A stretch of 64,000 nt of DNA from a candidate division Zixibacteria bacterium HGW-Zixibacteria-1 (GTDB lineage: Bacteria; Zixibacteria; MSB-5A5; GN15; PGXB01), in assembly GCA_002838945.1 (NCBI GenBank), contig PGXB01000001.1:62001-126000 (forward strand), in the 5' to 3' direction. Positions 4,921 to 18,389 of this stretch are shown in pieces. Below the pieces are notes generated by a model. The model saw only the letters and a list, made by a program, of their open reading frames with translations, was not told the DNA's origin and searched no databases. Both the position numbers and the translations under genes were made by a program. Position 1 is the first letter of the stretch; each line of letters opens with the position of its first letter.

Positions 4921-7875
4921 ATGGCGACTAATTTGTTAAGGTTTTTGCTCTTATTACTTCTGCTATGCGGAATTAACATGTCAGCCCGGGCAGCCGCTCC
5001 GGCGGTCCCTTTTGGAGACGACATTAATTCCGGCGAATACTTCAACACTACTGACTTCAACATTAATGAAAATACTCGGGAAATCGGCACACCGGTGGAT
5101 TTTATTGAAGCCATCGGTGCCGGAGCGAACTATCTCCGCGTGATGCAGGCCGATATCACTGAAGACAATGCCGGCAACGGAACAGATGGAGTCGATGAGA
5201 ATCCGGATGATCCGGATGACGGAGGCTGGGATTGGCGATTGACATCGCCGCCTGCTCCCTTCTCACATTCAGCAAGCTCCAGCCCCACAAATATTTATGG
5301 TGTTTCTGGAATGGGCCTGATTCGGGCCTACCAGAAACTTGGGACAGCAGAGACAGGCCTTTATACCGCCATCACCGATGCCGCCGATTATATGGCCGGC
5401 AACCCCGGTATAAGATCATCGGGGGATCTGATTTACTTGCTTCGCTGTGATTCGCTCATACCCGGAATGGGTTATGCGGATGCCGCCAAAGCAAAATTCG
5501 ACGCTCGAATCGCCGCTTATGGAAACGCCGCGCACCTCGCCGATTCAATTAAAAATATTCGTTATAGCCAGGGCTATGCAAATGGTATCATTGCCTGGGA
5601 TATCGGCTTATGGGTGCAGGCGGCCGGGATGCTGGAGGGGATGTATCCCGACGATGCCTACGATTACGGCCAGGCAGCGGTTGACATGGCCGAAGTGGTC
5701 TGGCAGGATTCATTTAACGACAATCCGGGCTACTTCGATGTCGAAGATGATAAGGGCTATGACCCGAGCCGCGCTAATGTCAATTACTGGTGGTACAATA
5801 TCGGCCTGTTCGGATTGATCACCTCATTTCAGTACTCCGGGAGCCATGTTTCGGAAATCGGATTTTTGGTCAATCGGCTTCTTGAAAGCCAAAACCGATA
5901 TGGCTTCTTCAGTTATCAATGGGGCGGTTATGACAATGATGCCGGCTGGCAGACTACCGCCTATTCGGTAATGGCGCTGGCGCTGGTGGATCAGGCCGCA
6001 TATCAGACTGAAATCAGCCATGCCTGTTACTGGACAGCCGCAACCCAGGATGCCAGCGGCGGCTGGGTTTACGATACCGATGAGCATCTCCCGGAAATCG
6101 GCAGCGAGAATACGGTGGCACTTTATTATGCCGAGCCGCCGCAGATGGTCATCGTCGATGATGACTTCATCAGCCAGGAAGCGGTTGATGCCTACAATAT
6201 CGCCAACGGCACCGGCTACCTTTGGGGCTATGATGCCTTCGCCACGATAACTGATGGTATTGCGGGAGCGACTGTCAGGACAGTGTCTGTCCTCGATGGT
6301 TTTTATACTGTGCCGATTAATATCGAAGGTGATTCGCCCGGAGGGAAATCAATTTCGATTTCAATTATCGGCTCGGGGCAGCTCAATACCGTATTTCAGC
6401 CGACCTCGACCGTCGCCTGGAATGTGGGCGGATATAATCGCCAGGCGGCCATCAGGGTGGTCAATGCCGACGTGACGTTTCAAAACATGACCATGGATTT
6501 CGATTTGATAAAGGCCAGTGAAACAGCCGGGATTCTATACTGGAATGCAACCGGAGAAATATCCGGAAACCTGATTCAGAACATGAATGTCCCTGATAAT
6601 TTCAACGGTTACCGTGAAATAACCAGTTACTTCCGGGCACCCGATTATACGCCCGAAAGCCGCGCCCATGTCGATATTCTCAATAATACATTCCTGAAAA
6701 CCGGACGGATTGGAATCGTAACGCATGATTATGTCGACGCAACTATCGACGGCAACACCTTCGACAAGGTTGATGATGATTTCGGCTATGCCATTGAAAT
6801 GGGTTCGGCCTCGACCGGCATTATCAGCAACAATGTCTTTGCCAACTATGATACCTGGGCGGCATCGGATGCCTCGACAGTGGCGGCGATCCTGGTGGAA
6901 AACCTGTTTACCCAGGGGGTAACGACGCCGATTGAAAAGACGGTCCTGATTGAGAATAATGAGATGTATCACTGCCAGTATGGTATATACATCGGCTCCG
7001 ATTATGTCGGGCTGGCTGGTGATGTCGATATTAATGCCACGATAAAGAACAACAATATCCATGATAATATAACCTCCGGTTCATATTCGGTCGGCGGAAT
7101 TGTCCTCGTCGAGAAAAATATGGCGGTTGGATCATCGCTGAGTGCCGTCATCGACAGCAATCAAATCCTGAATAATGTTTACAACGGAATATATATGTAC
7201 ACGGAAGGCAGCGGCGATATCTCGGCGGAAATTACCTATAATACGATCGAGGGCCATTACAACGGCATCCGCGTGGCCGAATTCATAAGCAAGGCTTCCA
7301 ACTTCGACCTGATGGTTCATCACAATATTCTCAGCAACGGTTTAAACGCCCGCGATGATATCGCCGGCGGTTACTGGGACGACGGGATATCGACGGGCAA
7401 TTGCTGGTCGGATTATGAAACCAATTCCGGTTACCCCGATCAGTACAATGTCGACGGTAATGCGGGGACAATCGACCGGTTCCCGAATATTTACTGCGGC
7501 GACCTATGTGACTGCTGGCCGGGCAATGCCAACAATGATGCCGGCTTGAACCTGCTCGATGTCACCAGTTTGATAAGTTATCTATATAAAACCGGTTCGG
7601 CGCCGGTTCCATACTCGATCTGCTCCGGCGATGCCGACTGCAATTGCAGTGTCAATCTGCTCGATATTACAAGAATGATAAGCTACATTTATAAATCGGG
7701 GACGCCGCCGTGCGACTGCGAAACATGGGTCGACAATTGCGGCTGGCCGCCGAGCAAATCGACAATAACAAATTCCGCACTCATGTGGCATCAAACGGCC
7801 GAGTCGATCTCAGCGCCCGCGGGATCGAGCGGCCGGGAGGAAGGAACCATTCACCCAGCGCCCGCCTATCGGTGA
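4921..7875 (+). CDS. Secreted alpha/alpha-toroid and beta-helix protein with C-terminal dockerin pair
   Basis: 984 residues. ATG at 4921 follows a GGGGGA ribosome site. Residues 1-24 form a signal peptide (leucine run, then SARAAAPA). Residues ~90-410 contain aromatic-rich helical repeats resembling the alpha/alpha toroid of the prenyltransferase/cyclase fold (WWYNIGLFGLI, GWQTTAYSVMALALVD). Residues ~500-850 carry many asparagine-ladder turns (ISNNVFANY, IENNEMYHC, IKNNNIHDN) typical of a right-handed parallel beta-helix. Near the C-terminus two dockerin-like calcium repeats each end in NLLDxTxxIxYxYK-G. The protein is expected outside the cell, perhaps binding or cleaving polysaccharide, but no catalytic residues can be assigned. 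No cohesin is encoded here. A terminator follows. Confidence 0.75.
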   Translation: MATNLLRFLLLLLLLCGINMSARAAAPAVPFGDDINSGEYFNTTDFNINENTREIGTPVDFIEAIGAGANYLRVMQADITEDNAGNGTDGVDENPDDPDDGGWDWRLTSPPAPFSHSASSSPTNIYGVSGMGLIRAYQKLGTAETGLYTAITDAADYMAGNPGIRSSGDLIYLLRCDSLIPGMGYADAAKAKFDARIAAYGNAAHLADSIKNIRYSQGYANGIIAWDIGLWVQAAGMLEGMYPDDAYDYGQAAVDMAEVVWQDSFNDNPGYFDVEDDKGYDPSRANVNYWWYNIGLFGLITSFQYSGSHVSEIGFLVNRLLESQNRYGFFSYQWGGYDNDAGWQTTAYSVMALALVDQAAYQTEISHACYWTAATQDASGGWVYDTDEHLPEIGSENTVALYYAEPPQMVIVDDDFISQEAVDAYNIANGTGYLWGYDAFATITDGIAGATVRTVSVLDGFYTVPINIEGDSPGGKSISISIIGSGQLNTVFQPTSTVAWNVGGYNRQAAIRVVNADVTFQNMTMDFDLIKASETAGILYWNATGEISGNLIQNMNVPDNFNGYREITSYFRAPDYTPESRAHVDILNNTFLKTGRIGIVTHDYVDATIDGNTFDKVDDDFGYAIEMGSASTGIISNNVFANYDTWAASDASTVAAILVENLFTQGVTTPIEKTVLIENNEMYHCQYGIYIGSDYVGLAGDVDINATIKNNNIHDNITSGSYSVGGIVLVEKNMAVGSSLSAVIDSNQILNNVYNGIYMYTEGSGDISAEITYNTIEGHYNGIRVAEFISKASNFDLMVHHNILSNGLNARDDIAGGYWDDGISTGNCWSDYETNSGYPDQYNVDGNAGTIDRFPNIYCGDLCDCWPGNANNDAGLNLLDVTSLISYLYKTGSAPVPYSICSGDADCNCSVNLLDITRMISYIYKSGTPPCDCETWVDNCGWPPSKSTITNSALMWHQTAESISAPAGSSGREEGTIHPAPAYR

Positions 7876-7890
7876 GCGATCTTCCTCTCA

Positions 7891-7921
7891 AAAGGGTCCG
7901 CAATTTTGCGGGCCCTTTTTT
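7891..7921 (+). terminator. Rho-independent terminator
   Basis: AAAGGGTCCGC pairs with GCGGGCCCTTT (one G-T pair) around a short AT loop and runs into a T tract, 15 nt after the stop of the dockerin protein gene. Confidence 0.88.
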
Positions 7922-8159: not shown

Positions 8160-8187
8160 TTGACTTTAGCTGACTCTGTGATATTTT
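8160..8187 (+). promoter_or_regulatory. Candidate promoter overlapped by the CRP-type operator
   Basis: TTGACT (8160-8165), a 16-bp spacer and TATTTT (8182-8187). The -10 hexamer is exactly the central spacer of the TGTGA-N6-TCACA palindrome, so a bound regulator would block it. A second possibility is a downstream activator-dependent promoter with TATTAG at 8219-8224. Confidence 0.4.
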
Positions 8188-8282: not shown

Positions 8283-9989
8283 ATGCCTCCTTCGTCGCCT
8301 GAAAAAGCCATATCCACGTTCCATTTTGGTTCTTATAATAAGGATCATTATCGGGATCTTCGACGCCGAAATGTCATTCGTCTGTTGCTGACTTATTTGT
8401 TGCCGCTGGTTCTGTTGGCCATTTATTTCATTTATCAGAATAACGCCATTATCCAGGACAGCCGGCGCCTGCATCTTAAGGGGATTGCGGAGAATCAGGC
8501 CAAGACTCTTAATCTCTTTCTGACCGAGCGGCTCGTCAATTTATCCAACTTGATTGATGATCCCAAGCTTCAGATTCCACCGGCATCCAGCATCATGCAG
8601 GATTATTTGAAGCATCTCAGGAAAAACAGCGAAGCCTTTGTCGATATCGGTTTTTTTGATTCAACGGGCGTGCAGACATCGTATGCCGGGCCCTTTCCAT
8701 CATTGGAGCGCCGCAATTACAGCTCCGAAGAATGGTATCGATCGCTGAAATCAAGGGATGACAATTATATAATCACCGATATTTATCTTGGCTTCAGGCA
8801 GCAGCCGCATTTTACGATCGCGGTTAGAAGAATCATTAACGGGCAGGCACTGGTAATGCGCGCCACTCTCAGCCCGGAAAAAGTCTATGATTATATCAGA
8901 TCTCTGGAAGGATCGCAGGAAGTCTATACTTCGATTGTCAACAAAAGCGGACAGTATCAGGTGGTTACCTATCATATCGGGACGCCGCTCGAGAAATCAT
9001 CAATCGTTCCTCCGGTTGACCCCAGGCTCGGTGTCGAGGATGTTAAAATCGAGGGAGCAAATATTATATACGCTTATTCATGGCTGGAATCGGCCGACTG
9101 GGCGCTTATCGTGCAGAACGAGGTCGCGGGCGGGAGCTTCTCGTTTATCAAATCAAATCTTCGGATAATGGGTCTTTCGACTCTGCTGATTCTGGCCATA
9201 TTTCTGATTATCATTAATCGCGCCAAACAACTGGTCAAATTCCAGATGGAAACCGACCGGACGCGCGCCCAGCTTGAACATGCCGCAAAATTAGCCTCCG
9301 TGGGCGAGCTGGCCGCCGGTATCGCCCATGAAATCAACAATCCGCTGGCCATAATCAGCGAAGAAGCCGGTTTGATGAGAGACTTTATCAATCCGGAATT
9401 CGGTCAGAATCTGAAATGTGAGGACTTGATTCCGCACCTCGACAATATCCATGAGTCGGTGTTCCGCTGCCGCGATATTACCCGAAAGCTTCTCGGATTT
9501 GTTCGTCGAACCGAGATGGATCTGAAACAGCTGACTATTCATAAGCTGATCGACGGCGTCCTGGATGGCATTCTGGGGCATGAAATGGCCGTATCAAATA
9601 TAGAAATTATCCGAAATTACGGGGCCGATGTCCCGGAACTGTTTACCGATGGGAATCAACTGCAGCAGGTTATATTGAATATTGTTAATAATGGTGTCGA
9701 TGCTATCGGGCACGGCCCGGGCAGTATAACGGTGGCCACCTTTGTTCAAAACAAATTTGTCTGCATTACCATTTCCGATACAGGGACCGGAATGAGTCCC
9801 GAACAAATGGAAAAGATATTCCTGCCTTTCTACACCACCAAGGAGGTCGGCAAGGGAACCGGGCTGGGATTGTCGGTAAGTTATGGTATAATAAAAAGTC
9901 TGGGCGGGAAAATAGAGGTCGAGAGTGTTCTGGGGAAAGGAAGCACCTTTATTATAAGTCTTCCGCTTCACCGTAAAAACGGCAAGTGA
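8283..9989 (+). CDS. Membrane sensor histidine kinase with extracytoplasmic Cache-like sensor
   Basis: 568 residues. One membrane span near residues 35-55 (LLTYLLPLVLLAIYFIY) and another near 300-320 (STLLILAIFLIIINR) enclose a ~240-residue periplasmic region resembling a double Cache sensor (YSSEEWYRS, ITDIYLG). The cytoplasmic part has the HisKA block ELAAGIAHEINNPLA with phospho-acceptor His349, an N box (VILNIVNNGVDAI), and G boxes DTGTGMSPEQ and GTGLGLSVSYGI, so ATP binding is intact. The class resembles kinases that sense small carboxylates or ions. First gene of a four-gene operon whose two receiver domains are likely targets. The ligand is unknown. Confidence 0.88.
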   Translation: MPPSSPEKAISTFHFGSYNKDHYRDLRRRNVIRLLLTYLLPLVLLAIYFIYQNNAIIQDSRRLHLKGIAENQAKTLNLFLTERLVNLSNLIDDPKLQIPPASSIMQDYLKHLRKNSEAFVDIGFFDSTGVQTSYAGPFPSLERRNYSSEEWYRSLKSRDDNYIITDIYLGFRQQPHFTIAVRRIINGQALVMRATLSPEKVYDYIRSLEGSQEVYTSIVNKSGQYQVVTYHIGTPLEKSSIVPPVDPRLGVEDVKIEGANIIYAYSWLESADWALIVQNEVAGGSFSFIKSNLRIMGLSTLLILAIFLIIINRAKQLVKFQMETDRTRAQLEHAAKLASVGELAAGIAHEINNPLAIISEEAGLMRDFINPEFGQNLKCEDLIPHLDNIHESVFRCRDITRKLLGFVRRTEMDLKQLTIHKLIDGVLDGILGHEMAVSNIEIIRNYGADVPELFTDGNQLQQVILNIVNNGVDAIGHGPGSITVATFVQNKFVCITISDTGTGMSPEQMEKIFLPFYTTKEVGKGTGLGLSVSYGIIKSLGGKIEVESVLGKGSTFIISLPLHRKNGK

Positions 9990-10049
9990 ATTTGAGATAG
10001 ATACAGGCTGGAAAAAAAACAAAATAATATAGCCCACAAGGGGAAAGAG

Positions 10050-10604
10050 ATGAAAACAAAACGTGTGAAAGAGTTGATGGTGCCGCTGGAGTCGTATCCG
10101 ACGGTTCCCCAGGATTCGACTTTGCTGGAGGCCGTGGATAAATTCGAGCGCGTGCAGAAGATGCGCGACCGGAGACGTCAGCCGTACCGGGCCATTTTGG
10201 TGGTGGATGAAACCAATCAGGTGGTCGGCAAAATCGGCCAACTGGCTTTTCTCAGGGCGCTGGAACCGCAGCGAAATGTCCTGGGCGACATGGGCAAACT
10301 TGCGATAGCCGGCGTCAGTGCCGACTTTATCAACACCATGATGAATCATTTCCAGTTTTTCCAGGACAGCATGGCCGACATATGCCGCCGGGCGCGCCAT
10401 ATCATCGTCAAAGACGTAATGGTCCCGGTTACCGAGAGTATCGACGAAGAGGCCACTCTGGGCGAGGCCATATACAGGATTGTCGCCCTGCAGACGCTTT
10501 CGATTATGGTGACCAGAAAAGGCAAGATAGTGGGGCTGCTCAGGCTTTGTGATGTCGTGCAGGAAATCGCCGACGAGATGAAGCACTGTGACGAGTTGAA
10601 CTGA
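10050..10604 (+). CDS. CBS-pair domain protein
   Basis: 184 residues with a good ribosome site (AGGGGAAAGAG) before the ATG. Two CBS motifs are visible: VKELMVPLESYPTVPQDS with AILVVDETNQVVGKI, and VKDVMVPVTESIDEEATL with IMVTRKGKIVGLL. A helical insert of ~50 residues separates them. CBS pairs usually bind adenine nucleotides and gate partner enzymes or transporters. Its position between the kinase and the receiver-transporter fusion suggests it relays energy status to that transporter; this is inference. No catalytic domain is attached. Confidence 0.85.
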   Translation: MKTKRVKELMVPLESYPTVPQDSTLLEAVDKFERVQKMRDRRRQPYRAILVVDETNQVVGKIGQLAFLRALEPQRNVLGDMGKLAIAGVSADFINTMMNHFQFFQDSMADICRRARHIIVKDVMVPVTESIDEEATLGEAIYRIVALQTLSIMVTRKGKIVGLLRLCDVVQEIADEMKHCDELN

Positions 10605-10627
10605 TCGCATTAAGCGGGAGAGGACAA

Positions 10628-12661
10628 ATGCCAAAAATACTCTTGGTTGACGATGAGAACAAGTTTCGCGAGTCTCTGGCCAAACGTCTTTCCTTGAGAG
10701 GATATGAAACGGTCGATGTCGATAACGGTGAAGATGCCATAAAACTGGTTCGTGCCGATTCGGATATTGACGTCGTTCTTCTTGATAGAAAAATGCCCGG
10801 TATGAACGGGGAGCAGGTTCTTAACGAGATCAAATCATTCCGACCGGAACTTCAGGTTATCATGCTGACGGCCTTTGGGTCACTGCAATCGGCAATGGAA
10901 ATCGGGAGGCTTGAAGCTTACTCATATATGGAAAAGCCGACTGATTTCGAAGAAATTGTCAAGACGATCGATGCCGCACGCGAAGATAAAGTGCATGTTA
11001 TGGCGAGGCACGAGGTCCCGCAGGTCGAAAAGGGCTCTCTCTGGAAATGGCTGATTGGGACACATAATACCCGCCCGGGGGTTATTTTACTGGGGATTCT
11101 TTTATTCACTATTTTGATATTTATGCCTTCGCCCCAGAGGCTGATGACCCTGCTATCGGCACCTAAGACCGGTCAGGTCACTGACTCCAACTTTGGTTTT
11201 GCCAACTACCGTCAGATGAAAGACGGCGAAACGATCGCCGAATATTACAGCACACATTACAAAGTCGGCAGGAACGTGACCAATGACCAGGGCAAGAAAA
11301 CAATGGAGGCTCTGACGCCTGAAGAAACATCTGTCAGGGCACGGATAATGCTGGGTGTCCTGCTGGTAGCGGCCCTGTTCTGGGCCACCGGCGCTATCCC
11401 GGTCGGTGTCACTGCTTTGTTGACCGGTGTCATGATGTATTTCTTCGGCATTCTAAAGCCGGATGATATTGCCCAGGCGTTTGCCAAAGATGCCGTAATC
11501 TTTATCTTCGGTGTCCTGGCGGTATCGGCGGTAATAAGCAAAACCGGCCTGGATCGCCGGATCGGGCTGTTGCTGTTGGGCCCATCGAAAAATATCGGGC
11601 GGCTTCTTTTCTTGTTTCTGCCGATGCTTGGAGTGGCCTGTTCATTCGTCTCCGAGCATGCCCTGATTGCCTTTATCATGCCGCTTTTCATGATGGTCTA
11701 CATCACGTCAATTCGCGCGGCGGGTGTCAAGAGGGACCGGGCGCTGGCGGTTATGTTCGTTCTTTCGATCTGTTTTGCAGCCAACTGCGGCGGCCCCGGC
11801 TCACCTGCGGCCGGCGGACGTAACGCCGTCATGCTCGGCATCCTGAGTGACTACGGCAACGCGCCGACATTCATCGAGTGGGTGAAATACGGTTTGCCTT
11901 TCGTGCCTGTAATGGGTCTGGTAATTGCAACCTATTTCTACTTTATGTTTCGTCGTAAGCTGAAGGTTAAGGAATTGAATGTCTCATCAATAGTTCGAAA
12001 TGCTTCGGAGAAAATCGGCCCGATGAACAGGGATGAATATATAACGGCGTTCGCGCTGATCGGCTTGATTCTCTTGTGGATTCTTGGCAGCGATAAATTC
12101 GGCATGGGCGGGCCGGTCATCCTGTGCATCGTTTTTCTGAACGTCTTCAGGATACTGCGCTGGCGGGATATCGCCAATATTCCGTGGGATGTGGTTTTTC
12201 TTTATGCCAGCGCCAGCGCCATCGGCAAGGGTCTGGCGGTAACCGGCGGAGCCTTGTATATGGCCGACAGTTTTATCAACATCCTGCCCGATTTCCTGAC
12301 CAGCGGCTCAGGACTGGCCATAGCGGTCAGCCTGTTCACCGGTATTACCACCAATTTCATGAGTGACGGCGCCACCGTCTCGGCGATCGGCCCGATCGCC
12401 ATACCCATGGCCACCATATCGGGTTCCAATCCCTGGATGATCGGTCTGGCGACCGCTTTTGCATCATCCTTTGCCCATATGTTAATCATCGGAACGCCCA
12501 ACAATGCCATCGCCTATGCCATGGCCAAGGACCCGATAACCGGAGAGCAGCTCGTGAAATTGAGTGACTTTTTTAAGCACGGTTTTGTTATATTGCTGTT
12601 GTCGTTCGCCGTGCTCTGGTTCTGGGTGATTCTCGGGTACTGGCAGTTTTTGGGATTTTAG
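10628..12661 (+). CDS. Response-regulator receiver domain fused to SLC13/DASS-type membrane transporter
   Basis: 677 residues in one uninterrupted frame. Residues 1-120 are a complete CheY-like receiver: acidic pair D8/D9, phospho-acceptor D53 in VVLLDRKMPG, MLTAFG, and the conserved lysine in YMEKP. After a linker and an initial membrane span (~145-165), the rest is a multi-span SLC13/DASS anion permease (LLVAALFWATGAIPVGVTAL, VIFIFGVLAVSAVISKTGLD). The substrate/Na+ SNT motifs are altered to SEH (CSFVSEHALIAF) and SDG (FMSDGATVSAIGPI), so the substrate may not be a usual dicarboxylate or sulfate. Transport apparently controlled directly by phosphorylation would fit the preceding kinase. No frameshift was seen at the junction. 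Confidence 0.87.
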   Translation: MPKILLVDDENKFRESLAKRLSLRGYETVDVDNGEDAIKLVRADSDIDVVLLDRKMPGMNGEQVLNEIKSFRPELQVIMLTAFGSLQSAMEIGRLEAYSYMEKPTDFEEIVKTIDAAREDKVHVMARHEVPQVEKGSLWKWLIGTHNTRPGVILLGILLFTILIFMPSPQRLMTLLSAPKTGQVTDSNFGFANYRQMKDGETIAEYYSTHYKVGRNVTNDQGKKTMEALTPEETSVRARIMLGVLLVAALFWATGAIPVGVTALLTGVMMYFFGILKPDDIAQAFAKDAVIFIFGVLAVSAVISKTGLDRRIGLLLLGPSKNIGRLLFLFLPMLGVACSFVSEHALIAFIMPLFMMVYITSIRAAGVKRDRALAVMFVLSICFAANCGGPGSPAAGGRNAVMLGILSDYGNAPTFIEWVKYGLPFVPVMGLVIATYFYFMFRRKLKVKELNVSSIVRNASEKIGPMNRDEYITAFALIGLILLWILGSDKFGMGGPVILCIVFLNVFRILRWRDIANIPWDVVFLYASASAIGKGLAVTGGALYMADSFINILPDFLTSGSGLAIAVSLFTGITTNFMSDGATVSAIGPIAIPMATISGSNPWMIGLATAFASSFAHMLIIGTPNNAIAYAMAKDPITGEQLVKLSDFFKHGFVILLLSFAVLWFWVILGYWQFLGF

Positions 12662-12679: not shown

Positions 12680-13168
12680 ATGACGGATAATATCAAACTA
12701 CTCATTGTCGATGACGAGGTAAAATTTCTCGATTCCATTGCGCAAAGGCTGGAACTTCGCGGGTTCGGCGTCACCAAGGCCAAGAGCGGACTGGAGGCGA
12801 TCGAGGCCGCCAAGACCGGCAAGTTTGACCTGGCCCTGCTGGATCTAAAAATGCCCGGCATGGACGGCACGCAGGTGCTGGAAATTCTCAAAAAAGAGCA
12901 TAAATATCTCGAGGTGATTATCCTGACCGGTCACGGCTCGGTCGATTCGGCGGTAGAATGCACCAAGCTGGGCGCATTCAGCTATCTCCCTAAGCCGTAC
13001 GAACTGGATATGCTCCTTGAGAAGCTGAAAGAAGCATTCCAGGAAAGACTGCGCAAAAAATTCGAAACCGACCAGGCACGGATGGACAAAATTGCCAAAC
13101 TGGCGGCCGGATCCAGCCCGCTGGGAATTTTACGTGAATTGAGAAAACTCGACGACGAAGTGAAGTAA
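12680..13168 (+). CDS. Stand-alone response regulator (receiver plus helical tail)
   Basis: 162 residues. The receiver has D11/D12, phospho-acceptor D55 in LALLDLKMPG, the switch threonine in IILTGHGS and the lysine in YLPKPYE. A charged helical tail (~120-162) replaces any DNA-binding or enzymatic output. It starts 18 nt after the transporter gene and is clearly paralogous to that gene's receiver (VDDExKFxxSxAxRLxLRG in both). It may act as phosphate sink, adaptor or competitor for the same kinase. It ends 9 bp before the stop of the converging hypE. Confidence 0.88.
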   Translation: MTDNIKLLIVDDEVKFLDSIAQRLELRGFGVTKAKSGLEAIEAAKTGKFDLALLDLKMPGMDGTQVLEILKKEHKYLEVIILTGHGSVDSAVECTKLGAFSYLPKPYELDMLLEKLKEAFQERLRKKFETDQARMDKIAKLAAGSSPLGILRELRKLDDEVK

Positions 13169-13177
13169 GGCGGGTTT

Positions 13178-14233
13178 TCAGCAGATTCGCGGCAGTTGCT
13201 CGCCGCTGAGCATATCGATGATACGATCGGCGCCGATGATGCTTTTCATGGTTACGATACCGTCGTTCTTCCCGCTGACTTTTCCGATAATCGCCGCTTC
13301 CGGCCAGAGCGATTCCTCGTGCAAAATATCCATGACTTTATCGGCATCTTTGTCCGGGACAAAGATGACCATGCGTCCTTCATTGGCGACATAAATCGGA
13401 TCAAACCCGAGAATTTCGCAAGCGCCGCGCACCTGATCGCAGACCGGAATCTTGTTCTCCTCAACTTCTATACGGCAGCTTGAGGTCGAAGCGATCTCGA
13501 CCAGCGAAGCGGCCAGACCGCCTCTGGTCAGATCACGCAAACAGTGAATATTAATTCCGCGGTCAAGCAGTTTCAGCACGGTTGCGGCCAGTGGGGCGCA
13601 GTCGCTCTCGATGGTGGTCTCAAAGGCAAGCCCCTCGCGGCGGGCCATGATGGCCATGCCGTGCCGTCCGATATCGCCGTTGATAATGACGACATCACCG
13701 GGTCGGACCGACGATGGTGCAATAGTCAGCTCATGTTCAATAACGCCGACCCCGGCGGTATTTATAAACAGACCGTGCCCGCGGCCCTTATCGACAACCT
13801 TGGTATCACCGGTAACGATGCTGACAGCGGCCTGATCGGCGGCTTCTCTCATCGAAAGCGCTACTCTCCATAGCGAATCCATGGAAAATCCTTCTTCGAT
13901 AATAAATCCTGCGCTGAGGTACAGCGGCCGTGCCCCGCACATGGCCAGGTCATTGACAGTACCATCGATGGCCAGTTTGCCGATATCACCTCCGGGAAAG
14001 AACAACGGATCGACCACATATGAGTCGGTCGTAAAGGCGAGACGATTCCCTTTTATTTTCAAAACAGCGCCATCATGCGCGGTCTCAAGGTGGGGATTGG
14101 CAAAAGTGGCGGCAAAAATTTTATCGATCAATTGATGCATCAACCTGCCCCCGCCGCCGTGCGCCAGCAGGACATGCGGATAATCGGAGATCGGTATGGG
14201 GCAGTTTAGTCCGCTATATTTTTTATCATTCAT
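13178..14233 (-). CDS. hypE: Hydrogenase maturation factor HypE
   Basis: Dehydrates the thiocarbamoyl group on its C-terminal cysteine to the cyanide ligand of the [NiFe] active-site iron. The 351-residue length is typical. Visible are the N-terminal ATP-binding block [38 protein letters not shown] and the essential C-terminal tetrapeptide PRIC. Last gene of the hyd-hyp transcription unit, 6 nt after hypD. Confidence 0.96.
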
Positions 14234-14239
14234 GGCATT

Positions 14240-15355
14240 TTATCCCAATTGATGGCCCATTGATTCGGGTCCGGCTTTTCGGTAACGATAGTATGCGGCG
14301 CAGGCGCCTTCCGATGAGACCATGGTCGCCCCCAGTGGATGCTCCGGGGTGCATTTGGTCCCAAAAACGGAACATTCGAACGGCTTCTTTTTTCCCTGAA
14401 GAATCAGCCCGCTGATACACTCGGCGGACTCCTCGGCACACATATCCTCCAGCCCGAAGCGTTTGGCGGCATCGAATTCAAGATACTTTTCGCAAAGGGC
14501 CAGACCGCTTTTTTTAATAATGCCAAGACCGCGCCATTTGCGGTCGACGACAGTAAACACTTCGCCGATAATTTTTTTCGCTTCAAGGTTTCCTTCCCGG
14601 CGGACGGCACGCCGGTACTGATTTTCAACCTCGGCGCGGCCCTCTTCGAGCTGGGCAATCGTCATATATATGCCCTGAAGAATATCGATCGGTTCAAAGC
14701 CGGTCACCACAATGGGGATTCTGTATCTGGAAACAATCTTTTCATAGTCTTCAAATCCAACCACCGAACAGACATGTCCGGCGGCCAAAAAACCCTGAAC
14801 ATTGTTTCCGGGCGCGCCGAGAATAGCCTCCATGGCGGGGGGAATAAGCACCTGGGCCATGAGTATCGAAAGATTTTTTAAATTCAATTGCCTGGCCTGA
14901 TAAACCAGTGAGGCATTGGCTGGAGCGGTGGTTTCGAAGCCGATGCCGAAAAAAACCACTTCTTTTCCCGGATTGTCACGGGCGATCTTAATCGTGTCGG
15001 TCGGCGCATAGACGGTGCGGATATCGCCGCCTTCGGCTCTGACCGACAGCAGGTCTTTGCTGCTTCCGGGAACGCGCATCATATCGCCGAATGAACAGAA
15101 GATGACATTCGGTCTTGATGAAATTGCCACCGCCATATCGACCAGTTCGACCGGAGTCACACATACGGGGCAGCCGGGCCCATGAAGCAGTTCAATTTTT
15201 TTGGGCAGGAGTTGATCGATACCGCTTTTGAGAATAGCATGGGTCTGCCCGCCGCAGACTTCCATAATGGTCCAGTTACGGGTGGTAATCCTGGCGATTT
15301 GCCTGACATAACGGGCGGCCGTCACCGGATCGCGGAATTCATCGATATACTTCAC
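14240..15355 (-). CDS. hypD: Hydrogenase maturation factor HypD
   Basis: Iron-sulfur scaffold on which Fe(CN)2CO is built together with HypC and HypE. 371 residues with the diagnostic [23 protein letters not shown] and the C-terminal cysteine cluster region ending in CAAYYRY. The start overlaps the hypC stop (ATGA), so translation is coupled. Confidence 0.96.
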
Positions 15356-15606
15356 GAATCATTATCCCCGGAATTTCCCAATTCTTCTATTTGACGAAGA
15401 TATTCGAAGGTTTGATTGGCCTCTTCTTCATTGACGGTGCTGATGGCAAAACCGGCATGCACCAGAACATAATTCCCGATCCCGGCTTCGGGCACGAGGG
15501 TCAGGTTGATCTCTTTGAGAACCCCGCCGAAACTGACTTTTCCGGTCCTCGAAAGAGAATCATCCGATTCTATACTGACAACTTTTCCCGGTATGGCAAG
15601 ACACAT
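15352..15606 (-). CDS. hypC: Hydrogenase assembly chaperone HypC
   Basis: 84-residue member of the HypC/HupF family that shuttles the Fe(CN)2CO unit from HypD to the large subunit. It begins with the canonical MCLAIPGKV, whose Cys2 is the iron ligand. One nucleotide separates it from the hypF stop. Confidence 0.95.
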
Positions 15607-15607
15607 A

Positions 15608-17878
15608 TTACAGTTCCAATTCTATTCCGCCGGCCGCCGCCATGATCTGCCCGATGGCGATGCCGCCGTCATTGGGCGGGATGCGGTGATGCCGGTATGG
15701 TTTAAATCCGGCCGACTCGAGACGGCTGATTGTTTTCTCGGTCAAATATTTGTTCTGAAAACAGCCGCCGGTCAGCACGACATTTTTCTCTCCAATATTT
15801 TCCGCTATAGCCAATATAATATCCGCCAGCGTATTTTGAAACCTGGAAGCGATTCGCCCCGGAGCCGCCACATTATGCATATCCGTGAAAATATCATGTA
15901 TAATTTGCTGCCAGTCAACGATGCTTTTCGATTCTTCCGAGATTAACCTGAATGTGTATGACTTCTCGTCAGGCTCGGAATCAGCCGCAAATTCAAGCAT
16001 CATGGCTGCCTGGCCCTCATAGCGGGAGACCTGGCAGATGCCCAGAATTGCGGAAACGGCATCGAATAGCCTTCCGGCGCTCGAGGTTCGGGGAGTGTTA
16101 ATATTTTTCTCCAGCATGGTTCTTAAGACCGCGGTATCGGAATTATCGAATGACATGAGCGGCGCAAGCTCTTTCATCGCGAAAACATCACTGCCAAAAA
16201 CCTCATATAACAATCCGAGTGCGGATCGCCGCGGCTCCCGGACGGCATAATCGCCGCCGGGCAGAGGGAAACATCTCAAATGGGCGATGCGCCTGATTTT
16301 CTTTCCGGTTACCTGAAAAAATTCGCCGCCCCAGATTGTTTTATCCGGGCCGAGGCCGGTGCCGTCCCAGGAGACACCCAGAACCGGCTCACTGAGTCGA
16401 TTATCCGCCATGCAGGATAGAACATGGGCCACATGATGCTGAACTTTTCTTGCCGGCAGGCCCATGTTGTCGGCAAAACGCGTGGACAAATAATCGGGAT
16501 GAAGATCCGACACGACCATCGCTGGTTTGAAATCATATATATCTGATAATGAGGCGGTTACTCGTTTCATGGCTTCGAAGGCTTCGGCGGTCTCCAGATC
16601 ACCGATATGCTGGCTGGCGAAAGCATGGTTTCCATTTGCAATGGCCACTGAGTTTTTTAGATGGGCGCCAACCGCCAGAATGGGGGAAACATGATTTGTC
16701 AGACTGACGGGTGTCGGGGCATAGCCGCGGGCATTGCGCATGACCATCGGTTGACCGTTCATCAGGCGGACGATGGAATCATCCATCTGTCTTGCAATAG
16801 GCCGGTTATGCATCAGGAACAGGTCGGCAATATCACCCAGTCGTTGAAGAGCTTCATTCTCATCGATGCAAATCGGCTCGTCGGACAAGTTGCCGCTGGT
16901 GGCGACAATCGGGAATGACAGTTCGGCCATCAGCAGATGATGCAATGGCGTGTAGGGCAGCATCACTCCCAGGTAAGGATTGCCCGGCGCCACGGAAGCG
17001 GCGATTTCGCTATTGGAATTGCTTCGGAGCAAGGTTATCGGTGACGGCGGTGATAACAGCAGCTCTCTCTCGGCAATCGATAATTCACAATCGCGTAAGA
17101 CAACTTCCATTGACGGGTACATCAGGGCCAGCGATTTTTCCTCACGGGCTTTGCGTTTACGCAATAGTTTCACCGCGTCATCATTGCGGGCGTCAACCAG
17201 CAGTTGAAAACCGCCAAGGCCTTTAAGGGCGAGTATCTTTCCCTGTTTGATCGCTTCGCAGGCAGCCATCAGGGCATCATCATGCATCGCCAGAACATCG
17301 CCGCTATTGCTCCACAACTGCAGATGCGGCCCGCATTCGGGGCAGGCATTGGGCTGGGCGTGGAATCTGCGATTCGATGGATCCTCGTATTCCTCACGGC
17401 AGCGGCGGCACATCGGGAAAATTTTCATGGTAGTGTTGCCGCGATCATAAGGGAGCGTATAGATGATGCTGTAACGAGGCCCGCAATTGGTGCAATTTGT
17501 AAATGGGTAGCGAAAACGCCGGTTGGATGGATCAAAGATGTCGTCCAGACATTTTTGGCAGGTGGCGATATCGGGAAGCACCAGGGCGGTCTTGCTGCCG
17601 CCATTGCCACTGATGCGAACGATAAATTCCTTATGCCCGACCGGATCGAGATCGGCCATTTCCTTATGATTAATCAGGGCCAGAGGCGGTTTTTCGGTGT
17701 CGAGACGATTGACGAATCGGTCAATATTATTCTCGTCCCCTTCAATATCGATTTCCACCCCCTGCGGCGAATTGCCGACCCAGCCGTGCAATTCAAGTTC
17801 ATTGGCAAGGCGATAGACAAAGGGTCGAAAGCCAACCCCCTGCACTGTCCCCTCTATTTTGATCAACAGACGTTTCAC
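15608..17878 (-). CDS. hypF: Carbamoyltransferase HypF
   Basis: Makes the carbamoyl group that becomes the CN ligands. Domains in order: acylphosphatase (IEGTVQGVGFRPFVYRLA), two C4 zinc fingers (CQKC...CTNC and CRRC...CPEC), a YrdC-like domain, and the Kae1-like carbamoyltransferase with VQHHVAHVLSCMADN and VSWDGTGLGPD. The frame can start at 17941, but the GTG at 17878 gives the normal N-terminus VKRLLIKIEG, lies 25 nt after the protease stop and has GGATGG upstream; it is preferred (756 residues). Confidence 0.95.
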   Translation of the reverse strand: MKRLLIKIEGTVQGVGFRPFVYRLANELELHGWVGNSPQGVEIDIEGDENNIDRFVNRLDTEKPPLALINHKEMADLDPVGHKEFIVRISGNGGSKTALVLPDIATCQKCLDDIFDPSNRRFRYPFTNCTNCGPRYSIIYTLPYDRGNTTMKIFPMCRRCREEYEDPSNRRFHAQPNACPECGPHLQLWSNSGDVLAMHDDALMAACEAIKQGKILALKGLGGFQLLVDARNDDAVKLLRKRKAREEKSLALMYPSMEVVLRDCELSIAERELLLSPPSPITLLRSNSNSEIAASVAPGNPYLGVMLPYTPLHHLLMAELSFPIVATSGNLSDEPICIDENEALQRLGDIADLFLMHNRPIARQMDDSIVRLMNGQPMVMRNARGYAPTPVSLTNHVSPILAVGAHLKNSVAIANGNHAFASQHIGDLETAEAFEAMKRVTASLSDIYDFKPAMVVSDLHPDYLSTRFADNMGLPARKVQHHVAHVLSCMADNRLSEPVLGVSWDGTGLGPDKTIWGGEFFQVTGKKIRRIAHLRCFPLPGGDYAVREPRRSALGLLYEVFGSDVFAMKELAPLMSFDNSDTAVLRTMLEKNINTPRTSSAGRLFDAVSAILGICQVSRYEGQAAMMLEFAADSEPDEKSYTFRLISEESKSIVDWQQIIHDIFTDMHNVAAPGRIASRFQNTLADIILAIAENIGEKNVVLTGGCFQNKYLTEKTISRLESAGFKPYRHHRIPPNDGGIAIGQIMAAAGGIELEL

Positions 17879-17903
17879 AAAAAACCATCCAACGGTGGAA
17901 AGA

Positions 17904-18389
17904 CTATTTTGAACTGCCCTCGAACGCCCGGCGGATTTCATCGGCTATTTGTTTTATCACTTCGTCGGCGCTTTTATGAACCCTATCGGACAATCCCTGG
18001 CCGGTGCCGAAGTTTTCCCCTTCAATACCATAGATTATCAGATTGTCCGGCAGATAATCAATATTTCGGGCCAGCGCGATCGCAGCGGTGATATTGAATG
18101 CATGCGTGGACAGGCCGGGAAAGTAATTTTCAGGGATATTCTCGCTAAGAGCGTCGAAACGGTATATTTTGCCCGGCTCGCCTCCGGAGTGGACACAATC
18201 AATAACAATTGCCCGGGAAATTCCTTTCCAGGCCTCGATCATCGAGGTCCCATCGTTGATACCCTCGATGATCGTCGTATTTTTCAGGCCCTTCTTATTT
18301 ATCTCCCGGGCGACATATAATCCGACGGCATCGTCGGAACGAAAATCATTTCCGACCCCGATAACCAATATGGGGTGCTTTATCGTCAT
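17904..18389 (-). CDS. Hydrogenase maturation protease for the group 3b large subunit
   Basis: 161 residues of the HyaD/HycI family, which removes the C-terminal peptide of the large subunit after nickel insertion. Seen: ILVIGVGNDFRSDDAVGLYV with the nickel-sensing acidic residue, IVIDCVHSGGEPG with the second aspartate, and the histidine block STHAFNI. It lies 13 nt downstream of hydA, its probable substrate, which ends in DPCxxCxxH plus nine residues. Confidence 0.92.
   Translation of the reverse strand: MTIKHPILVIGVGNDFRSDDAVGLYVAREINKKGLKNTTIIEGINDGTSMIEAWKGISRAIVIDCVHSGGEPGKIYRFDALSENIPENYFPGLSTHAFNITAAIALARNIDYLPDNLIIYGIEGENFGTGQGLSDRVHKSADEVIKQIADEIRRAFEGSSK

Follow-up and report, generated by a model that had tools for sequence, protein, structure and literature searches.

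The open frame at 10628–12661 (+) of the window, the whole 64,000-nucleotide stretch of DNA analysed here, encodes a protein in which a complete two-component receiver precedes a DASS-like elevator permease (REC-DASS). The frame lies in one operon with a likely partner histidine kinase, and the activity of the transporter is probably set directly by this two-component system. As the receiver is built into the permease and the likely kinase is encoded in the same operon, transport may be switched directly without a change in gene expression. No description of the REC-DASS architecture was found in the open-access full texts that were searched. The features of the operon and of the fused protein are as follows.

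7890–7919 (+): terminator-like hairpin of 13 pairs closing the upstream gene (consensus match only)
8160–8187 (+): promoter-like site upstream of the operon, TTGACT-16-TATTTT, with TG before the second hexamer (consensus match only)
8283–9989 (+): dCache histidine kinase, 568 aa, probable partner (Pfam dCache_1, HisKA, and HATPase_c)
10050–10604 (+): CBS-domain protein, 184 aa, probable ligand-binding regulator (Pfam CBS; conserved partner)
10628–12661 (+): REC-DASS fusion protein, 677 aa (open frame, Pfam, AF2, and Foldseek)
10634–10969 (+): receiver domain, aa 3–114, with D8, D9, T81, and K103 (Pfam and alignment)
10784–10786 (+): predicted phospho-acceptor D53 (invariant in 38/38)
10970–11074 (+): conserved linker from the receiver to TM1, aa 115–149, ARHE[VI]P...W..G.....RPG
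11132–11317 (+): TM1–TM2 loop of ~62 aa, aa 169–230, the least conserved part
11318–12655 (+): DASS-like elevator permease core, aa 231–676 (Pfam, AF2, and Foldseek)
11651–11659 (+): first hairpin tip, S342-E343-H344, replacing SNT (alignment with VcINDY)
11819–11824 (+): R398-N399 in the loop that is of the GTxPN type in VcINDY (alignment)
12362–12370 (+): second hairpin tip, S579-D580-G581, replacing SNT/SNV (alignment with VcINDY)
12680–13168 (+): REC2, receiver-only protein, 162 aa, with the conserved helical tail ILREL.KLD (Pfam Response_reg; tail alignment)

The 677 codons were open without interruption, and the sequence upstream of the frame, GGGAGAGG, was purine-rich and resembled a ribosome-binding site. 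Pfam searches placed Response_reg (PF00072) at residues 4–114 (E 7e-24; 84.6 bits against a threshold of 30.2) and Na_sulph_symp (PF00939) at residues 231–676 (E 3e-38; 132.6 bits against a gathering score of 27), both above cut-off. The closest solved sequences were NtrC/Spo0F-type receivers for the N-terminus and VcINDY and human SLC13 for the permease. The AlphaFold2 (AF2) model of the fusion (mean pLDDT 80) comprised a receiver and a DASS elevator fold. When the model was submitted to Foldseek, human NaCT (TMt 0.80) and VcINDY (TMt 0.77) were returned, and receiver structures were matched too. The docking site of the receiver was unreadable from this model because the linker had a pLDDT below 50. 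The TM1–TM2 loop is predicted to be extracytoplasmic on the basis of DASS topology. D8, D9, D53, T81, and K103 were all present. The original prediction of a complete receiver and a DASS-like permease in one frame was confirmed, and the N-terminal domain is, by its sequence and residues, a true receiver.

The receiver residues, whose lack of conservation had been named as a possible objection, were found to be conserved. D8, D53, T81, and K103 were invariant in all 38 full-length fused proteins and D9 was kept in 35/38, being replaced by Q in the other three. S342-E343-H344, R398-N399, S579-D580-G581, and N626 were likewise invariant in 38/38. In the four closest pairs, dN/dS was 0.02–0.10 for the receiver and 0.05–0.07 for the permease; the receiver is under purifying selection, like the permease. 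A degenerate receiver was therefore rejected. The permease was the most conserved region, with a mean majority-residue frequency of 0.81–0.82 compared with 0.72 for the receiver.

The three D9Q proteins were encoded at loci L024, L032, and L134, the only well-flanked intact loci without the kinase and REC2 (the first two loci are also seen as L085 and L087). Their receivers shared 65–79% identity and their permeases 79–85%, the receivers diverging faster, while the kinase-bearing loci L086, L088, and L135 showed the opposite pattern (82–90% for receivers and 78–87% for permeases). This fits a relaxed constraint after kinase loss. Because the three loci form one clade, the correlation between D9 replacement and kinase loss represents one event. 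D53 and K103 were still present in these kinase-less copies, which are second copies of REC-DASS in genomes that also carry a complete one.

In a scan of genome contigs, orthologues carrying the fusion came from Zixibacteria and from genomes with the labels Gemmatimonadota, Fibrobacteria, Acidobacteria, and Deltaproteobacteria, some of these labels being taken from record titles only; the "Acidobacteria" locus L025 falls within Zixibacteria in the tree. The 38 distinct full-length proteins were drawn from numerous assemblies, one of them a chromosome in a single contig. Among Zixibacteria, 28 of 133 genomes (hand count of the table) carried the full-length fused frame and 5 further genomes carried partial or contig-edge copies. 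The fusion was found in 3 of 249 genomes of the Gemmatimonadota sample, 1 of 151 of the Fibrobacteria-labelled sample, and 1 of 7 of one further small phylum, and two fused copies were found across overlapping samples of Desulfobacterota. Thus, the fusion is rare outside Zixibacteria, and its patchiness suggests horizontal transfer; no match to it was found in the plasmid collection. Since the fused permeases formed one supported clade with unfused permeases as its sister group, the simplest history is one in which the fusion arose once. It had been asked whether orthologues might be two separate genes and the fusion an error: the orthologues were fused, which excludes the error, and it was the more distant relatives that were encoded as separate genes.

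The order of dCache kinase, CBS protein, REC-DASS, and free receiver was maintained in most loci. In 41 distinct loci, counted from full and partial copies, the kinase gene preceded the fusion in 36 and REC2 followed it in 36. The loci lacking them were short or broken ones, together with L024, L032, and L134, which hold CBS and REC-DASS only. In the window, the four genes were co-directional with gaps of 60, 23, and 18 bp, and the gene directly downstream was convergent on the opposite strand. The kinase was complete, with HEINNP at H349 and intact N and G boxes. Its proposed link to the fused receiver was supported by this conserved gene order and by the trees, in which the phylogenies ran in parallel. 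The CBS protein, which is also a conserved partner of permeases without a kinase, and REC2 are members of the module as well, beyond what had been listed originally. A Pfam search found no DNA-binding domain in any of the four operon proteins. The dCache domain had no relative among solved structures that could indicate its ligand. The neighbours offered no clue to the substrate, as the flanks varied by genome (Na+/H+ exchanger, MFS, release-factor-like, and Wzz).

Several neighbouring and variant arrangements were also observed. In the window, hypE, hypD, hypC, and hypF-like genes for [NiFe]-hydrogenase maturation (identified by eye) were located at 13178–17941 (−), convergent with the operon, and just upstream of it, at 4921–7875 (+), was the gene for a 984-aa protein that starts like a signal peptide and has dockerin-like repeats towards its C-terminus. 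At L116, the kinase upstream of the fused REC-DASS was itself N-terminally fused to a receiver (9454–11499; 681 aa, REC then kinase), and a third DASS-type permease (525 aa) was located upstream on the same strand. At L105 (10482–11192, −; the same as L030:3012–3722), the CBS partner upstream of the kinase weakly matched an ACT domain, with a score under the Pfam threshold, which hints that its ligand may differ.

The permease also departed from known DASS carriers in its hairpin-tip motifs. As had been predicted, both SNT motifs were lost, the tips SEH and SDG being invariant across the 38 fused proteins, with E343 and D580 at the positions of the SNT Asn in VcINDY. The replacement was no alignment accident, because another permease of the same genome, encoded on contig C6, has both SNT motifs intact. 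A loss caused by the fusion was rejected, as the unfused relatives of class A' also carry SEHA and SDGA; the loss therefore characterises a divergent DASS-like lineage, whether or not a receiver is attached. Classes A, A', B, and C all had the RN pair and an Asp at the second tip; at the first tip, the residue was Glu (A and A'), Asp (B), or Ala (C). Together with R398, the SEH and SDG tips suggest a chemistry unlike Na+/dicarboxylate symport, with coupling to H+ or another cation, or a different anion or other substrate. A substrate or coupling ion different from that of known DASS carriers, as originally put forward, is thus plausible.

Compared with DASS/SLC13 carriers (VcINDY, NaCT, and NaS1; TC 2.A.47, PF00939), the elevator fold and domain order were alike, whereas the SEH/SDG tips, the Arg in the GTxPN-type loop, the ~62-aa TM1–TM2 loop, and the N-terminal receiver set this permease apart. 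It scored 173.9 bits with TIGR00785 (dass, NCBIfam), below the curated cut-off of 198.6. "DASS-like" is accordingly the accurate term, and in view of this score and the SNT motifs the permease was not filed as a canonical DASS symporter. ArsB, an arsenite:H+ antiporter of the same IT superfamily, likewise has an acidic first tip, its NDGA aligning with SEHA; however, its second tip differed and the profile match was not significant (hhalign probability 1%, E 0.054). The likeness to ArsB beyond the superfamily level thus came down to a local motif.

The same parts were found unfused or recombined in other genomes. In class A' (Desulfobacterota, 44–47% identity), the permease was its own gene, with receivers, kinases, and often CBS genes nearby but separate; the order at L118 was CBS-REC-DASS-HK-REC. 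Class B, found on contig C26 of the same genome and in many others, consisted of HK, REC-REC, DASS, and REC-CBS. The copy on C26 (L009:4006–9427) encoded a dCache kinase, a double receiver, an unfused 615-aa DASS-like permease with SDH/ADG tips, and a REC-CBS fusion, a module type that recurs widely in Zixibacteria and Desulfobacterota. Class C consisted of CBS and DASS, often with no other genes. A separate kinase and a long NtrC-type regulator were located near several A' and B loci (e.g., L009, L117, and L118), and these regulators could handle transcription; except at L009, where the sequence was read, they were assigned by size and receiver hits.

In the trees, the kinase and receiver homologues of two loci with other permeases fell within or adjoined the clades of the window's kinase, fused receiver, and REC2. 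These loci were L103, with a class B permease, and L037, with a TauE/SafE permease and a PPDK-like protein. The stand-alone receiver at L103 (4790–5323), beside the class B permease, grouped inside the fused-receiver clade and ended with HEVPVSLKQWVLG, matching the fusion linker HEVPQVEKGSLWKWLIG (HEVP..SLKQW). The simplest reading is that this receiver was formerly fused and was later detached and re-paired. From the tree positions of both loci and the linker at L103, the trio of kinase, receiver, and receiver is therefore considered portable between permeases. Tentatively, and at somewhat less than an even chance, this trio controls transport rather than transcription and has been combined with no fewer than three types of permease: DASS-like of class A (by fusion), DASS-like of class B, and TauE/SafE. 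At L037 (1448–8808), L117, L120, and L123, a kinase and receivers of this kind flanked genes for a TauE/SafE permease, an unknown protein of 228 aa, and a PPDK_N/PEP-utilizer protein.

According to the proposed mechanism, an external cue would act through the dCache kinase (8283–9989) to phosphorylate D53 on the fused receiver, which the conserved linker joins to the first transmembrane helix of the permease. DASS carriers are homodimers, and phosphorylation would therefore probably alter the pairing or docking of the receivers. A changed pairing of the two cytoplasmic receivers, or their docking on the permease, would then lock or release the elevator. REC2 may compete for or drain phosphate, or carry the same signal elsewhere, while the CBS protein may bring an internal signal, probably an adenine nucleotide. 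The phosphotransfer, the effect on transport and its sign, and the roles of the CBS protein and REC2 were inferred. Transport would be the obvious output, as the module has a complete kinase, a complete receiver tethered to TM1 by the conserved linker, and no DNA-binding output. The idea that phosphorylation could gate transport without transcription gained good indirect support from the intact receiver, the adjacent kinase, the lack of a DNA-binding output, the split-gene relatives, and the joint loss of D9 and kinase. Since class C permeases work with no receiver at all, transporters of this type do not depend on phosphorylation.

The main rival to direct phospho-control is a co-sensor model like that of DctA/DcuS, in which the fused receiver serves as a docking domain that brings the permease to the kinase, and the substrate or transport state tunes the phosphorylation of REC2, so that D53 does not regulate transport. 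Co-sensing between a carrier and a kinase is established for DctA/DcuS (PMC6978683), and a second receiver is always retained with the kinase. However, known co-sensors have no receiver domain, REC2 has no output domain, and the invariant D53 and full active site exceed what docking alone requires; this model is considered unlikely. It is still less probable that the fused receiver serves as a phosphate sink, or phosphatase-dependent buffer, insulating REC2, with the permease as a membrane anchor near the kinase. One kinase does serve two receivers, and relatives have the receiver both tethered and free, but a mere anchoring role would not account for the permease being the best-conserved region, and the fusion persists without a local kinase or REC2 in three genomes.

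The loss of D9 in three copies could indicate that gene fusion left the receiver as a passive remnant without regulatory effect, yet this is very improbable given that the receiver is under purifying selection and that active-site residues are invariant in at least five phyla. Similarly, the unfused relatives at 44–47% identity might raise suspicion of an assembly or annotation error. The recurrence of the identical frame in the 38 distinct full-length copies, and their grouping in one supported clade, refuted an artefact, and the probability of such an error is negligible. Direct phospho-control of transport is accordingly the preferred reading.

Carriers with appended signalling domains include SPX in Pho90/91, TrkA-C in SAC1-like carriers, and CBS in ClC/MgtE; these domains bind small ligands and, unlike that of REC-DASS, are not phospho-receivers. 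CbrA differs from REC-DASS in that its SLC5 carrier is joined to a kinase instead of a receiver, and the system acts on transcription. As in DctA/DcuS and DcuB/DcuS (PMC6978683), a secondary carrier would work with a sensor kinase in REC-DASS, but in those systems the carrier informs the kinase, the output is a transcription factor, and the carrier has no receiver. The "nitrate cluster" of Desulfovibrio (DVU0251–DVU0246; PMC4001038) is similar to REC-DASS in that a permease, a kinase, and receiver-only proteins are clustered without a DNA-binding output. Insertions in its TauE-like permease, receiver-only protein, and PPDK-like protein led to the same nitrate resistance, for which its authors suggested a leaky thiosulfate transporter (PMC4001038). 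Matched by annotation, this cluster would be a genetic precedent for a receiver-only protein serving a permease. It differs from REC-DASS in its permease family and its unfused receiver, and the likeness was drawn from annotation rather than sequence. The cassettes at L037, L117, L120, and L123, which look homologous to the nitrate cluster, are located next to members of the DASS-like family or have its kinase and receivers in common.

The output of two-component systems is mostly transcription, motility, or second messengers. A receiver within a secondary carrier offers a natural system for testing whether phosphorylation controls transport directly, and the acidic hairpin tips mark an uncharacterised DASS-like lineage, likely with different coupling or substrate. 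If the portable trio does control transport, it would represent a general class of two-component systems with membrane flux as output. Moreover, REC-DASS gives a handle on the many receiver-only proteins that lack an assigned output and are encoded beside permease genes in sulfate reducers and their relatives.
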